Part shown: piece by piece, positions 10,016 to 60,967 of the stretch
Layout of the letters: each line of letters begins with the position of its first letter
Numbering within the stretch: position 1 is the first letter of the stretch
Source: Saprospiraceae bacterium
Lineage (GTDB): Bacteria; Bacteroidota; Bacteroidia; Chitinophagales; Saprospiraceae
Reading direction: 5' to 3'
Assembly (NCBI GenBank): GCA_016787415.1
Contig: JAEUUT010000109.1
Location: 62,001 to 126,000, forward strand
DNA length: 64,000 bases
Made by a program: the position numbers and the translations under genes
The notes under the pieces: model-generated
Database searches by the model: none
Seen by the model: the letters and a program-made list of their open reading frames with translations, nothing else
Told to the model about the DNA's origin: nothing

Positions 10016-10168
10016 AGAGGTGAGAAGTGAGAAGTGAGAAGTGAGAGGTGAGAAGTGAGAAGTGAGAAGGGCTGCAAAAGTACGGCGTATGAAAGATTTT
10101 ACAAAATTCCGGGAGCGAAGCGGTACACGCTACGGATTCTCGCCTCTCACTTCTCACTTCTCACCTCT
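10016..10168. repeat. Composite palindrome B1 (GTGAGAAGTGAGAGG-type)
   Basis: The left arm (10016-10069) is a run of GAGAAGT/GAGAGGT heptamers. The right arm (10133-10168) is the same word on the opposite strand. The core is kept only on the right side (GGTACACGCTACGGAT, the complement of ATCCGTAGCGTGTACC); the left side of the core has diverged. The loop carries the mtaB promoter. The right arm supplies the stop codon and last residues of the helical protein encoded next door. Confidence 0.85.
10075..10105 (-). promoter_or_regulatory. Promoter for mtaB
   Basis: On the minus strand TTTG (10105-10102) is separated by 19 bases from TACTTTTG (10082-10075). That is the Bacteroidota -33/-7 consensus at its usual spacing. 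Transcription would start near 10068, giving a leader of about 57 bases made almost wholly of repeat arm B1. Confidence 0.65.
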
Positions 10169-15288: not shown

Positions 15289-15361
15289 GCGGGATATTCA
15301 TGCACCAGGCAAATGAATATCCCGCCATTTCTCACCTCTCGCTTCTCACCTCTCACTTCTC
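15289..15361. repeat. Hairpin plus single GTGAGAAG-type arm (B3)
   Basis: A perfect 13-bp inverted repeat (GCGGGATATTCAT, 15289-15301, with its complement at 15313-15325) is followed at once by one arm of CTCACTTCTC words (15327-15361). The arm ends three bases from the nadA stop codon. No second arm is present. It may act as the nadA terminator or mark a half-deleted element. Confidence 0.8.
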
Positions 15362-15364
15362 TAA

Positions 15365-16381: not shown

Positions 16382-16390
16382 GGTGTTGTG

Positions 16391-16440
16391 TTGATGAGGG
16401 TTGATGAGGGTTGATGAGGGTTGATGAGGGTTGATGAGGG
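16391..16440. repeat. Five tandem TTGATGAGGG decamers
   Basis: Five exact copies of the 10-base word stand directly upstream of the nadA start and, if the promoter at 16496-16489 is used, lie inside its mRNA leader. The same word forms a larger array near 40.7 kb and caps the arms of an element near 47.5 kb. Confidence 0.95.
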
Positions 16441-16488
16441 GTAACGGTTAAAAAGGGAGAAGTGTTCAAAAAATGAGGAATAGGGCAG

Positions 16489-16496
16489 CAAAGGTA
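16489..16496 (-). promoter_or_regulatory. Candidate -7 box for nadA
   Basis: TACCTTTG on the minus strand fits the Bacteroidota -7 consensus exactly. No good TTTG is seen 19-20 bases upstream, where palindrome A2 begins, so the -33 part may have been overwritten. Confidence 0.45.
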
Positions 16497-16503
16497 TGAA
16501 AAA

Positions 16504-16637
16504 AGTCCTCAGTCCTGAGTCGTAAGTCCTAAGTCTGTAGAGTACACCTTACTTCTATTGGCATTTCAATAAACCAATCCCAAGGGTAACATGGCGTACT
16601 CTACGGACTTAGGACTTACGACTCAGGACTCAGGACT
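16504..16637. repeat. Composite palindrome A2 (AGTCCTGAGTCGTAAGTCC-type)
   Basis: Arms of about 45 bases match at all but three positions. Both arms carry the variant word GAGTCGTAAGTCCTAAGTC, which differs from palindrome A1, followed by the shared core GTAGAGTACACC/GCC. The loop has a short stem (ATTGG with CCAAT). It fills the divergent spacer between nadA and the YhiN-like gene. Confidence 0.9.
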
Positions 16638-16661
16638 ATTTTTATTTTTGCCAAAAATTTC

Positions 16662-40672: not shown

Positions 40673-40903
40673 GTTGATGAGGGTTGATGAGGGTTGATGA
40701 GGGTTGATGAGGGTTGATGAGGTTGATATGGGTTGATGAGGGTTGATGAGGGTTGATGAGGTTGATATGGGTTGATGAGGGTTGATGAGGGTTGATGGGG
40801 GTTGATGAGGGTTGATATTCAGCCACTCGATGAATGAAAAATCATTCCTTACCCCGAGCCGCCATTCATCAACCCTCATCAACCCTTATCAACCCTCATC
40901 AAC
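40673..40903. repeat. GTTGATGAGG array with inverted partner
   Basis: Fourteen full and one partial copies of a 9-10 base word (GTTGATGAGG, variants GTTGATATGG and GTTGATGGGG) run from 40673 to 40817. A 48-base spacer and an inverted set of four words (40866-40903) follow. The array has a higher-order pattern: four or two standard words, one 9-base word, one GTTGATATGG. It separates pdxA from ppgK. The surrounding 293 bases carry no gene; a weak minus-strand box TACTCTTG lies at 40913-40906. Confidence 0.95.
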
Positions 40904-40928
40904 AACAAGAGTAACTGACAACCAATAA

Positions 40929-43545: not shown

Positions 43546-43671
43546 AGAAGTGAGAGGTGAGAAGTGAGAGGTGAGAATCCGTAGAGTGTGCCGCTCCGTT
43601 CGAATGAACATTGTAGCGGAGCGGCACACTCTACGGATTCTCACCTCTCGCTTCTCACCTCTCACTTCTCT
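43546..43671. repeat. Composite palindrome B2 (GAGAAGTGAGAGGT-type)
   Basis: Arms of 53 bases (43546-43598 and 43617-43669) match at all but one position, with an 18-base loop. Each arm has GAGAAGT/GAGAGGT heptamers on the outside and the core ATCCGTAGAGTGTGCC inside. The right end overlaps the stop codon of the DUF4197 gene. This is the most perfect palindrome in the window. Confidence 0.95.
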
Positions 43672-50259: not shown

Positions 50260-50397
50260 AACACGGTAACACGGATTACACAGATTATAACGGATTTACA
50301 CGGATTAGACAAGTTCGCAGGTATATATTCCCATGCACTGCTGGCGCCAAACACCCTATCCGTGTAAATCCGTTATAATCTGTGTAATCCGTGTTTC
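50258..50397. repeat. Composite palindrome F (ACACGGATT-type)
   Basis: A perfect 37-base match between arms built from ACACGGATTACACAGATTAT and AACGGATTTACACGGAT. The left arm has an extra ACACGGTA word. The 47-base loop is not repeated elsewhere in the window. It starts within the stop codon of the adhesin-like gene and ends about 100 bases before the caspase gene. Confidence 0.9.
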
Positions 50398-56898: not shown

Positions 56899-59800
56899 TC
56901 AGCGTTTGACCACTTTCACCACAGCACCCGTTTTGCCTGTAGCGATGCGCAGCAGGTAAGTGCCGGCAGGCAATTGACCCAGGCGAAGATCGAACTGGTT
57001 CGGGCCGCTGCTCAACTGCACCGTCTGGGTTTGCAGGGTTTCACCGAGCAGGTTATTGACGGTTACCTGTGCGGAGGTGTTTTCTGCACTTTGCAGACTG
57101 ATTTGTACCCGATCGGTAGCCGGGTTGGGCGCCACGGACAGTTGCAGTGCCGAAGCGTTTGCTTCATTGGTGCTTACCTGCAAACTGCGGTCGCCGGTAG
57201 CATACCATACGCCTTGCTGACGGCTGGTGACGAGCAGACTGGCATTGCCCTGACCGGTGATTTTGGTATTGTTTACGCCTTGCAGATACAGGTCGTAGTC
57301 GCCAAAAATGTCAGGACTTTGGTGCAGCACGGCATTATCGAGGCGGGTGTAACTGGGCCAGCCCAGGTCGCCGTTGTCGCTCACAATCACATCATAGTCT
57401 CCGGTTTCGGAGTTGGAACCATACACATCGTAAAACGAACCGTCATTGGCAAAAAAGTCGAAGGCGAGTACGTAAGGCGAGTTTTTTGCAAAGGCAGGGT
57501 CGCCAATGCTGGTATTTTCCGGAATGCCCGTAAACAGTTTGGAAATGAACGGCGTGCCGGTAACAAACTCCCCGTTGTCGCGGAATTGCAGGAAACTGAT
57601 ATCCCAGTAACTCAGGTCAGTACTGCCGTTTGAAAGTTGGTTGAATGCATCGTACATCAGGTTTTCGCCCGAATAGTCGAATTCAAGCACATCGGCGTAT
57701 TGCACCTCGCCGGTAACCGTATTTTCAGAATAGGTCGGGTTGTACAGCACGTACACATAGGTATCACCCAGGATGCTCAACAGGTCGGCGATGTATATTT
57801 TATTGTCCGCATCTTCCGTAATGGCGGCGAGATAACTGCCATCTTTGGAAATAGCCACATTGCGCCAGATAGGATCGGCGGAATACGGCGGATTCACCGT
57901 TGGGATAATCTGCGATTGTGTGTACACCAGGTCGACAAGAATGATATCGCCTGCTGCATTTACAAAAGCAACTTGAGAACCATCATCGGACACGCTGGGG
58001 CGGCTGCGCACACCATCCGTGTAAATAGAGCCCAGCACGGTACCATCGCTCAGGGCGATGTCGAGGTTTTGGTTGTTGTTCGTGACGCAAAGGATAAGGT
58101 CTTCTCCCGGGTTGGGCGAGAGTTGTCCGAGGTAATTACCGCCCGGTGCGCTGCCGATGCCTACCTGTGAAAAAGCAGTGGCTGCCGCATTGGCCACAGT
58201 GGAGCCGTACAGGTCGGTAGCCGCCTGAATCACGGCAATACGCGCATCGATGAACTGACTGGATTTTACCAGATAGTCGTCGAGCGCTTTGTAGTACACC
58301 AGTTCGGCTTTGTCTTTGCCTACTCCAGCGGTATTGGCAAACAGGTAAAAAGCGTGGTTTGGGATGCCGCTGTTGATATGCACGCCGCCATTGTCATCAT
58401 TTCCATTGTATTGTTCGTTGGTATGGCTGGGCTGCCACCACGGGCTGCTCGAACTTACGCCATTGTGCGGGTCTTGCAGGCTGCGGAGCACATTGTTCGG
58501 GTTTACGCCGCTTTGCATCACGTCTTCGCCAATGTTCCAGTCGTCGCGGTCGATCATAGCGCCGAATACGTCGGCAAAGGATTCATTGAGCGCGCCGCTT
58601 TCATCCTGGTATTCGAGGTTGGCAGTTTTTTCCACTACGCCGTGGGTCATTTCGTGGCCGCCTACGTCGAGTCCGCGGGCCAGTTTTTTGAAAATACTGC
58701 CGCCGTTGCCATACCACATGGCAGCGCCGTTCCAGTAGGCATTTTCCATGGAAGTGCCGTCGTCGTCTGCTACGTTGTAGAAGGCGATGATATTGCCGCC
58801 AACGCCGTCGATGGAGTTGCGTCCGAAGGTGGTATTAAAATAGTCGTAACTCTTGATACTGTTCCAGTGTGTGCTGACAGCCGTAGTGTTGTTGAAAGTA
58901 GTGGAGCCGGAAGTAGCGAGGGAATAGTTGAAAGAGGCCTGGTTGGCTGGCGAAGTGTTCAGGGCGTCGACGGTGACAATTACGCCCACCGGGTCGTTCG
59001 GCATGGACGAGGCACCACTGTTGAACATTGGTTTGCTGGCGTCTTCCATGACAATGGTGTTGCCCGACTGCCAGGCGCCAAAGGAGCGATTTACATTCAG
59101 CAGGTCGTTGCCCGATGCCGGAACAGGCCCATCCACCAGTAGTGCCCCTTCTCTCACTTCTCGCTTCTCACCTCTCACCTCTTCTGTCTCACCTCTCACT
59201 TCTCGCCTCTCACCTCTCTCATGAGCATGTCCGGCGATATTACAGGTGTTGTCATATTGATGCAAAATAGCGCCTGTTTGAGCATCTACGAAATATACCA
59301 TGCGCGCCATCAGGTTGGGGTGCGCCACGATATGCCAGGCCAGGCGTTCGGTGTTCAACTGGCGATCCTTGTGGTAGATAACCAGTTCGCTGCTGAATGG
59401 CTGACCGCCGATGATCTGCAATTCCTGTTCTGTCCAGGAGGTTTTTACCTTGTCGGCGCCGATGGCCATTTTCACTTGCTCGATGGCACGGCCAGCGTCC
59501 AGCGCGGGTGTTACATTTTCAATAGCAGGCGTGGGGTAGTAGCGCCCGTTGAGCATATCAAAAGCGCCGTTGTGTGTATGCGCAATCAGTTCTGCTCCAT
59601 ATACAGGCACGCCGCGCAGCACCTGTTGCAAACGCACATGGGTGTTGCCCTGAGCATCCGTTTTTACATTGGAAACGGTAAACTCGGCCAGTGGCTCGTT
59701 GATAGAAGTGGGTTGCAGGCTGGCCAGGTATTGCAGGGCGCGAATGCCTGTATCCTGCGCATCGGATGCGCTACCCGATGCTGCTGTTTTGCCTTGAAAT

Positions 59801-60072
59801 GCGATGGGAAGGCCGTTTTTGTCTTTGGTGATTTTCACAGAGCCCGGTGTTCCGGACATGCGGTTCAAGGCTGGCATCGGCTGGCGACGTGCGCTGCCAG
59901 AGGGTTGAAGGGGTGGCTTTACGGTTGGGATAGCAACGCCATCGGGGCGCCGAATCTTGGTTTGCCAGGATTCATAACCGGCACTCTTTTGAGGCGGATT
60001 TTTTTTTGCGTTTTGCGCATTGGTTGCTGACACCAACGTAAAAAGTATAAACAGCGGGAGAAATGATTTCAT
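56899..60072 (-). CDS. Secreted M4 (thermolysin-like) metalloprotease with T9SS domain
   Basis: A 1057-residue exported protease. Signal peptide MKSFLPLFILFTLVSATNAQ with ATG at 60072. An FTP/PepSY propeptide covers about residues 40-285 (VYGAELIAHTHNGAFDML). The catalytic domain follows, with the HEMTH zinc motif near residue 475 and NESFADVFGA about 20 residues later, both intact. Middle regions have WD40-like beta-propeller repeats (SDDGSQVAFVNAAGD); the end is a T9SS sorting domain (VAPNPATDRVQISL). At residues about 284-308 a stretch rich in Arg and Glu (ERREVRGETEEVRGEKREVR) is encoded by a repeat arm inserted in frame. Confidence 0.93.
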   Translation of the reverse strand: MKSFLPLFILFTLVSATNAQNAKKNPPQKSAGYESWQTKIRRPDGVAIPTVKPPLQPSGSARRQPMPALNRMSGTPGSVKITKDKNGLPIAFQGKTAASGSASDAQDTGIRALQYLASLQPTSINEPLAEFTVSNVKTDAQGNTHVRLQQVLRGVPVYGAELIAHTHNGAFDMLNGRYYPTPAIENVTPALDAGRAIEQVKMAIGADKVKTSWTEQELQIIGGQPFSSELVIYHKDRQLNTERLAWHIVAHPNLMARMVYFVDAQTGAILHQYDNTCNIAGHAHERGERREVRGETEEVRGEKREVREGALLVDGPVPASGNDLLNVNRSFGAWQSGNTIVMEDASKPMFNSGASSMPNDPVGVIVTVDALNTSPANQASFNYSLATSGSTTFNNTTAVSTHWNSIKSYDYFNTTFGRNSIDGVGGNIIAFYNVADDDGTSMENAYWNGAAMWYGNGGSIFKKLARGLDVGGHEMTHGVVEKTANLEYQDESGALNESFADVFGAMIDRDDWNIGEDVMQSGVNPNNVLRSLQDPHNGVSSSSPWWQPSHTNEQYNGNDDNGGVHINSGIPNHAFYLFANTAGVGKDKAELVYYKALDDYLVKSSQFIDARIAVIQAATDLYGSTVANAAATAFSQVGIGSAPGGNYLGQLSPNPGEDLILCVTNNNQNLDIALSDGTVLGSIYTDGVRSRPSVSDDGSQVAFVNAAGDIILVDLVYTQSQIIPTVNPPYSADPIWRNVAISKDGSYLAAITEDADNKIYIADLLSILGDTYVYVLYNPTYSENTVTGEVQYADVLEFDYSGENLMYDAFNQLSNGSTDLSYWDISFLQFRDNGEFVTGTPFISKLFTGIPENTSIGDPAFAKNSPYVLAFDFFANDGSFYDVYGSNSETGDYDVIVSDNGDLGWPSYTRLDNAVLHQSPDIFGDYDLYLQGVNNTKITGQGNASLLVTSRQQGVWYATGDRSLQVSTNEANASALQLSVAPNPATDRVQISLQSAENTSAQVTVNNLLGETLQTQTVQLSSGPNQFDLRLGQLPAGTYLLRIATGKTGAVVKVVKR
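59149..59219. repeat. GTGAGAAG-type arm inside the M4 protease gene
   Basis: About 71 bases of TCTCACTTCTCGCTTCTCAC-type words lie in the coding sequence and keep frame. They encode alternating Arg, Glu, Val and Gly at the end of the propeptide, just before ALLVDGPVPASG. The same words make up the arms of B1, B2 and B3. Confidence 0.92.
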
Positions 60073-60127: not shown

Positions 60128-60967
60128 TTATTGGATGATTTCTTTCCAATCGACACTGTCGTTGTGCGAATGGGTAAATCCGATAGCGCGCTCGGCAGCG
60201 ATGGTTTGTTCGTCGCGAAAAGCCATTACGTATGTTTTGCGCCATTCGGTGGTATAATTTCCGCCCGAACCGTGCACGATGCGTTCGTCGTGGATGGTGA
60301 TGCTGCCGCGTTTAACGGGCAAAAAAACAGGTTTATCGGTAGGCAGGCTTTCGATGACGAGCGTGTGCGAATCGGAGCGATCCATGTTTTCATCGTGCTG
60401 ATTGCCGTAATCTTTCGGTCGGTGCGCTCGCAGTTCCGGCTCGTGGCTGGTGCCGGGAATAACCTGCAGGCAGCCGTTTTCGATGGTAGCATCGTTGATG
60501 GCCAAGGAAAAAGTGGCCGTCCAGGTGTTGGGCGTTTTGGGCCAGTACCCCAGGTCCTGGTGCATGGCAAACTCGGCCTTGGTTTTGTTGGGCTTTTTGG
60601 CCAGAAACTGCTCATAATCCATACGTGCCACACCTTCCGGGTATAGTTGATCGGCGATACTTTGCGCCACCCTGAAAAAGATATTGTTTTTCAGTTCGGG
60701 CCGGTAGGTGCTGGGCAACATGGCATTCACCAGTTGAAACTCCTCCACCGGCGTTCCGTATGGCTGGCTCATATCGCAAAAGTCTTTCTCCATGCCGGGT
60801 TCTTTGCCGTGGATAAAGTGATCGAACCAGGGTTCGAGTACAGCGACTTCCTCTTCCGAGAGTACATTTTCGAGCACGAGGTAACCTTGTTCGCGGTATT
60901 GGCGGATTTCATCGGGGGTGATGTGGTAGGTGTCGCCCTGGCGGCGAGGAGTAGAGTGGGTGGTCAT
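60128..60967 (-). CDS. Phytanoyl-CoA dioxygenase-family oxygenase
   Basis: A 279-residue Fe(II)/2-oxoglutarate-dependent oxygenase-like protein. The HxD iron motif is AMHQDLGYWP near residue 138, the distal His lies in IVHGSGGNYTTEWRK with the 2-oxoglutarate-binding Arg. FSLAINDATIENGCLQVIPG is a typical PhyH segment. The substrate is unknown; relatives act on acyl-CoA, ectoine or halogenated compounds. The stop lies 55 bases before the M4 gene start. Confidence 0.85.
   Translation of the reverse strand: MTTHSTPRRQGDTYHITPDEIRQYREQGYLVLENVLSEEEVAVLEPWFDHFIHGKEPGMEKDFCDMSQPYGTPVEEFQLVNAMLPSTYRPELKNNIFFRVAQSIADQLYPEGVARMDYEQFLAKKPNKTKAEFAMHQDLGYWPKTPNTWTATFSLAINDATIENGCLQVIPGTSHEPELRAHRPKDYGNQHDENMDRSDSHTLVIESLPTDKPVFLPVKRGSITIHDERIVHGSGGNYTTEWRKTYVMAFRDEQTIAAERAIGFTHSHNDSVDWKEIIQ

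Follow-up and report, generated by a model that had tools for sequence, protein, structure and literature searches.

A single heptamer repeat arm in frame in the propeptide-catalytic linker of an M4 metalloprotease gene in a Saprospiraceae bacterium

Between the propeptide and the catalytic domain of a secreted M4 metalloprotease, a Saprospiraceae genome (G000) codes for a regular Arg/Glu-rich peptide. The gene lies in a 64,000-nt stretch of DNA that was analysed as a whole (the window). This locus raises the question of whether repeat DNA entered a conserved gene in frame, by what route it came to occupy this linker and whether the residues that it adds alter the processing of the enzyme.

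The heptamer array and its host gene

The features of the gene are listed below. Residue numbers of the protease start at a GTG codon at 60156; numbering from the likely ATG is lower by 28.

56899..60072, minus strand: M4 metalloprotease gene, 1057 aa from the likely ATG (60072), with signal-peptide-like MKSFLPLFILFTLVSATNAQ at the ATG
59542..59688, minus strand: FTP propeptide motif, residues 157-205 (PF07504, 6.1e-15)
59149..59219, minus strand: GTGAGAR heptamer array, single arm, in frame, period 21 nt or 7 aa, in-frame TGA removed
59146..59223, minus strand: repeat-coded linker HERGERREVRGETEEVRGEKREVREG, predicted to be disordered
59115..59139, minus strand: predicted region of the mature N-terminus, from L340 (LVDGPVPAS), with a VDGPVxASG boundary conserved in orthologues
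58630..59115, minus strand: Peptidase_M4 catalytic domain, residues 348-509 (PF01447, 7.3e-29)
58156..58623, minus strand: Peptidase_M4_C, residues 512-667 (PF02868, 1.9e-44)
56911..57129, minus strand: T9SS C-terminal sorting domain, Por_Secre_tail (PF18962, 4.5e-11)

The open reading frame around the gene opens at the GTG and runs on the minus strand from 60156 to 56899 (1085 codons). The FTP, Peptidase_M4, Peptidase_M4_C and T9SS sorting domains each exceed the Pfam cut-offs, which places the product in peptidase family M4. Its HExxH zinc site is intact (GGHEMTHG in the translation), and H453, E454 and H457 are invariant in the orthologue alignment A1.

The linker is coded by about ten GTGAGAR-type heptamers and reads RGERREV-RGETEEV-RGEKREV, within the repeat-coded peptide stretch RGERREVRGETEEV. 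On the coding strand the units of the array are GGTGAGA GGCGAGA AGTGAGA GGTGAGA CAGAAGA GGTGAGA GGTGAGA AGCGAGA AGTGAGA. Because 7 and 3 have no common factor, the array repeats every 21 nt (seven residues) and yields an identical heptapeptide in all three frames, so that any stop-free array codes for a regular hydrophilic repeat wherever it is inserted. The array lengthens the protease by about 26 residues. Its 7-periodic score was 15, whereas 300 shuffles of the M4 gene reached 10 at most, and a codon shuffle gave p = 0.0005, the floor of that test. Chance low complexity was ruled out by these shuffles, by the dominance of period 7 in the signal and by the match to a genomic repeat family. 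A search of the M4 gene for a second arm found none.

Alignment with the thermolysin precursor covered only the end of the propeptide and the catalytic domain, one on each side of the linker. By analogy with the M4 family, and with thermolysin in particular, the mature N-terminus is expected at or near LVDGPV, directly after the repeat, and cleavage at this boundary is presumably normal. An AlphaFold2 model of residues 49-690 (23 sequences) gave pLDDT values below 50 at model residues 260-291 (ORF residues 308-339), which correspond to the repeat linker, and mostly above 85 in the domains that flank it. The model suggests that the repeat-coded linker is probably a disordered tether.

Among 30 same-genus orthologues first aligned, all from draft genomes and mostly from MAGs, the segment was present in one, from genome G034, whose protease is 94% identical. 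It was still limited to G034 among about 50 sequences after the comparison was widened to the family, and in Kryptoniota and Ignavibacteria about four residues (YNNTxxDGP) separate the propeptide strand from the conserved DGP boundary. Its absence from all orthologues except that of G034 ruled out an old conserved feature of the protein. In a comparison set without a very close strain, absence from long-diverged orthologues may reflect decay. Two M4 protease orthologues, L011 (G015) and L022 (G028), carry one TAA within the match.

GTGAGAR is the dominant repeat of this genome: a 20-mer pattern allowing at most one mismatch had 1082 matches, and a reversed control pattern had 0. Counted as triple units, it was found 1082 times in G000, 238 times in G034, 175 times in G016 and 138 times in G006; 26 of 30 same-genus genomes had none. 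The original prediction had placed one repeat arm in frame in the M4 gene at 59149-59219, as an insertion at the propeptide/catalytic boundary. Coordinates, minus strand, domains and periodicity all agree with it, no opposed arm is present in the gene and the orthologue alignment is in accord with an insertion. Orthologues bearing the segment in genomes otherwise free of the repeat had been named as counter-evidence; the sole other carrier, G034, has GTGAGAR genome-wide, and the 26 GTGAGAR-free genomes lack the segment.

In the flanks, G000 and G034 differ by a pS of about 0.46, and the insert is therefore not recent. Within the array, which comprises only 27 codons, pN was 0.135, compared with 0.05 in the preceding flank and 0.02 in the following one, and the array pS was 0.19, below that of the flanks; pN/pS was about 0.7 in the array, as opposed to 0.04-0.1 outside. 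This pattern fits weak constraint on the protein together with a degree of homogenisation.

A perfect forward GTGAGAR array contains TGA once per three units in every frame. At units 2, 5 and 8, the ones that would bring TGA into frame, G034 has CGA in all three and G000 has CGA, CAGAAGA and CGA, and the C variant occurs at no other unit of either M4 array. Elsewhere in G000 it was present in 18 of 342 units (Fisher p 2e-4). This is selection for an open frame, acting on the copy that was fixed or later.

Heptamer repeats elsewhere in the genome and in other species

In an 834-kb sample of G000 (13.6% of the genome) we counted 189 arrays with a period of seven, against 0 to 26 for other periods in the range 5-11. 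With coding status judged by ORF length and codon usage rather than annotation, the M4 array was the only one of the 189 clearly within a gene, although 69% of random positions score as coding. A complete element consists of a GTGAGAR arm, an inner palindrome around CGTAGAGTGTACCGCTTCGCT and an opposite arm. Single arms are the ordinary state of the repeat (51, against 18 pairs, in the G000 sample), and all 18 pairs, at 43546-43669 in the window and at 17 other places, share the same relative arm orientation. The copy in the M4 gene, without opposed arms around an inner CGTAGAGTGTACCGC palindrome, is a single arm. Intergenic copies in the window are:

43546..43669, no strand assigned: complete GTGAGAR element with arm, inner palindrome CCGTAGAGTGTGCCGCTCCG and opposite arm
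10016..10168, no strand assigned: second element, with both arms
15329..15363, minus strand: single arm of the GTGAGAR family

Other repeats are also present in the window. A different heptamer palindrome family, with AGTCCTR arms and a CGTAGCGTACACC-like core, occurs at 2467-2600 and 16496-16645. Decamer arrays of GTTGATGAGG lie at 16389-16444 and 40673-40904, with opposed copies at 40866-40903, and a perfect 38-nt inverted repeat (AACACGGATTACACAG...) with a 52-nt loop spans 50268-50395.

Y1_Tnp genes were found in 8 of 10 genomes, with none found in G031, and one G000 copy shares a contig with a GTGAGAR array. This survey did not support a RAYT/Y1 transposase as a requirement. On a 3.3-kb contig of G000 (G000:C16, L050 401-850), a solo Y1 (IS200/RAYT-like) transposase gene has GTGAGAR-like sequence on both sides.

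Codon shuffles identified significant 7-periodicity in the M4 linkers of G000, G034, G016, G033, G026, G031 and G022; most orthologues, including sisters of carriers, had no 7-periodicity there. The linker family is AGTGCGA in G016, CGTCAAY in G033, CGTATAC/CGTCAAC in G026 and of ACTGCCA type in G031 and G022. According to genome counts, AGTGCGA is a genomic repeat in G016 and G006, CGTCAAY is one in G033 and in other genomes, and the G026 linker motif is one in G026 and G010; ACTGCCA was not found as an abundant family in the genome of G031 or G022. The arrays of G026 and G031 are weak (scores 7-8). All arrays scoring at least 10 (G000, G034, G016, G033 and G022) lie in the linkers, which make up 5.9 kb, and none with such a score was found outside the linker in 153 kb of aligned orthologous gene. 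On a tree built from the part of the gene downstream of the linker, parsimony required five changes in array presence, or three when strong arrays only were scored.

It could be that the G016 array is homologous to that of G000 and G034, AGTGCGA being one base from AGTGAGA. The phase of the G016 array, read by hand from the alignment, is offset from theirs by 2 nt at either end, which favours a separate origin without settling the matter. The linker of G022 contains a palindrome whose 45-nt arms match perfectly around a 4-nt loop (L077 780-1030, G022:C47; the same gene as L148, JABAQQ010000051.1); its family is sparse in the G022 genome outside this gene. The propeptide and catalytic part of the G022 protease are in different frames, so that the gene is broken as assembled; the frame break could be an assembly error.

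Arrays were additionally found in other genes of the genus. In G033 and G026, CGTCAAY/CGTATAC-type arrays lie in frame in genes for a B12/radical SAM protein, a methylmalonyl-CoA mutase, a fused E1 dehydrogenase and DnaE. The loci are:

L193, L194 and L195 (G033) and L197 (G026): in-frame arrays in the conserved genes just named, DnaE being a DnaE-type DNA polymerase III alpha

Eight of 65 CGTCAAY-like arrays of other species were in coding-like frames, among them those in acetoacetate-CoA ligase, in BirA, in an FG-GAP/ASPIC protein and in a linker before a T9SS tail. Six of these eight have the stop-free orientation. Of the others, one is the FG-GAP protein's second arm and one is N-terminal, possibly located before the true start. 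In the FG-GAP/ASPIC protein of G023 (L234 1264-1540), both heptamer palindrome arms are translated in one frame. Compared with orthologues, the E1 dehydrogenase array has clearly inserted about 20-25 residues, and those of acetoacetate-CoA ligase and BirA mostly replace a variable loop at near-equal length. One loop of acetoacetate-CoA ligase is of PSTVNRQ type in G021 and G038 (L243, L244) and of KSQIVNR type in G017 (L245). For an ABC-transporter candidate (L211), alignment with the PDB gave no net length gain, and an insertion was not demonstrated. The idea that stop-free families always enter genes was not supported: AGTGCGA is stop-free on both strands, yet 0 of the 13 arrays near sampled sites of G016 were genic, as opposed to the 8 of 65 among CGTCAAY-like arrays of other species.

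Origin and role of the linker array

Very probably, an arm of a palindromic heptamer repeat landed in a permissive tether of the M4 protease, as happened repeatedly across species, and survives there if the frame is open. One GTGAGAR arm would have entered the propeptide-catalytic linker in the common ancestor of G000 and G034, and would persist as a translated, probably disordered tether of a secreted protease. The linker would be permissive in that its length and sequence matter little provided the frame is open, and repeat DNA would for this reason have been fixed there repeatedly, each time in a stop-free version or orientation, the frame-breaking palindrome of G022 excepted. Movement of the repeat was presumably by transposition, template switching or gene conversion.

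Local slippage that began at a chance seed within the gene and had no relation to the genomic repeats is compatible with gain and loss in 21-nt steps that preserve the frame and with the resemblance of the G034 copy to three 21-nt units. We nevertheless regard slippage as very improbable, because the array unit is that of the dominant genomic family, which is absent from most relatives, because different species have their own heptamer families at the same place and because the G022 linker has a complete palindrome. It is also unlikely that a single ancestral array occupied the linkers of all species and that its units were later converted to other heptamer families. Such conversion would fit the arrays of different type at the same place in several lineages, the two families at one site of acetoacetate-CoA ligase (G017 as opposed to G021/G038) and the lower pS in the array than in the flanks, which suggests homogenisation; however, most orthologues, sisters of carriers too, lack 7-periodicity in the linker, and the perfect palindrome of G022 must be recent.

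The Arg/Glu-rich linker may have been selected because it creates or tunes a site at which a protease specific for Arg/Lys processes the enzyme: the predicted mature N-terminus follows closely downstream of it, it contains 8-9 Arg/Lys residues in G000 and G034 versus 0-5, mostly 1-3, in orthologues, and its frame stayed open through the deep divergence seen in the flanks. However, the same architecture is found in orthologues that have 0-2 basic residues, the array shows weak amino-acid constraint, chemically different repeats occupy the linker in other species and the VDGPVxASG motif just downstream is unchanged, and we consider such selection quite improbable. Trypsin-like proteases could find cleavage sites in the Arg/Lys-rich linker, but there is no sign of selection for that, and a new processing site is not needed to explain the array. 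We infer that the repeat in the linker is tolerated rather than beneficial.

A wider reading, which we put forward only tentatively, is that host-specific heptamer palindromes may be an ongoing source of new linkers across the genus. Arrays would overwrite the same loops and tethers (M4 protease, acetoacetate-CoA ligase, E1 dehydrogenase, DnaE), with family swapping and stop removal, and form a rapidly changing and partly adaptive layer. Possible stages coexist, from a gene-breaking intact palindrome (G022) through stop-free in-frame arrays (G000, G034) to degraded arrays. Whether the repeats supply useful linkers or are merely tolerated DNA thus becomes testable by comparison and experiment.

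Relation to known repeat systems

The best-known palindromic repeats within genes are those of Rickettsia and Wolbachia. In the present case, heptamer arrays occur several times in the linker of one enzyme in one genus of Bacteroidota. We found no description of heptamer-armed palindromes in Saprospiraceae genes in the open-access literature. The GTAG/CGTC REPs are palindromes of 20-40 bp, mostly intergenic with some in genes, and the GTAG type is often near RAYT transposases (PMC3733652). The present repeats are likewise small, palindromic and mostly intergenic with some genic copies; unlike REPs, they have heptamer arms that flank an inner palindrome. Different REPs at about the same recB site in two Xanthomonas species provide a precedent for reuse of a site (PMC3733652).

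TAACTGA heptamer direct repeats are found in Beggiatoaceae, Cyanobacteria and some Bacteroidetes, mostly near start codons, and were predicted to be tolerated between the subunits of modular proteins (PMC4679880). Like them, the repeats described here are heptamers arranged in tandem, lie mostly between genes and carry stop codons in one orientation. Unlike those simple direct repeats, their heptamers form the arms of palindromes, belong to many families per genome and lie in frame in conserved genes.

Rickettsia palindromic elements (RPEs) and the coding palindromes of Wolbachia were reportedly described by Ogata et al. in 2000, 2002 and 2005. RPEs are 105-146 bp long with terminal inverted repeats, and lie in frame in conserved protein genes, where they are apparently tolerated (PMC2229807). 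The analogy with such in-gene elements drawn in the original prediction is supported, in that a repeat of a genome-specific family was inserted in frame in a conserved gene and seems to be tolerated. Instead of a 105-146 bp palindrome, however, the M4 gene has one tandem heptamer arm with the same heptapeptide in each frame, and different heptamer families occupy one site in different species. The M4 array works like an RPE but is not an RPE.
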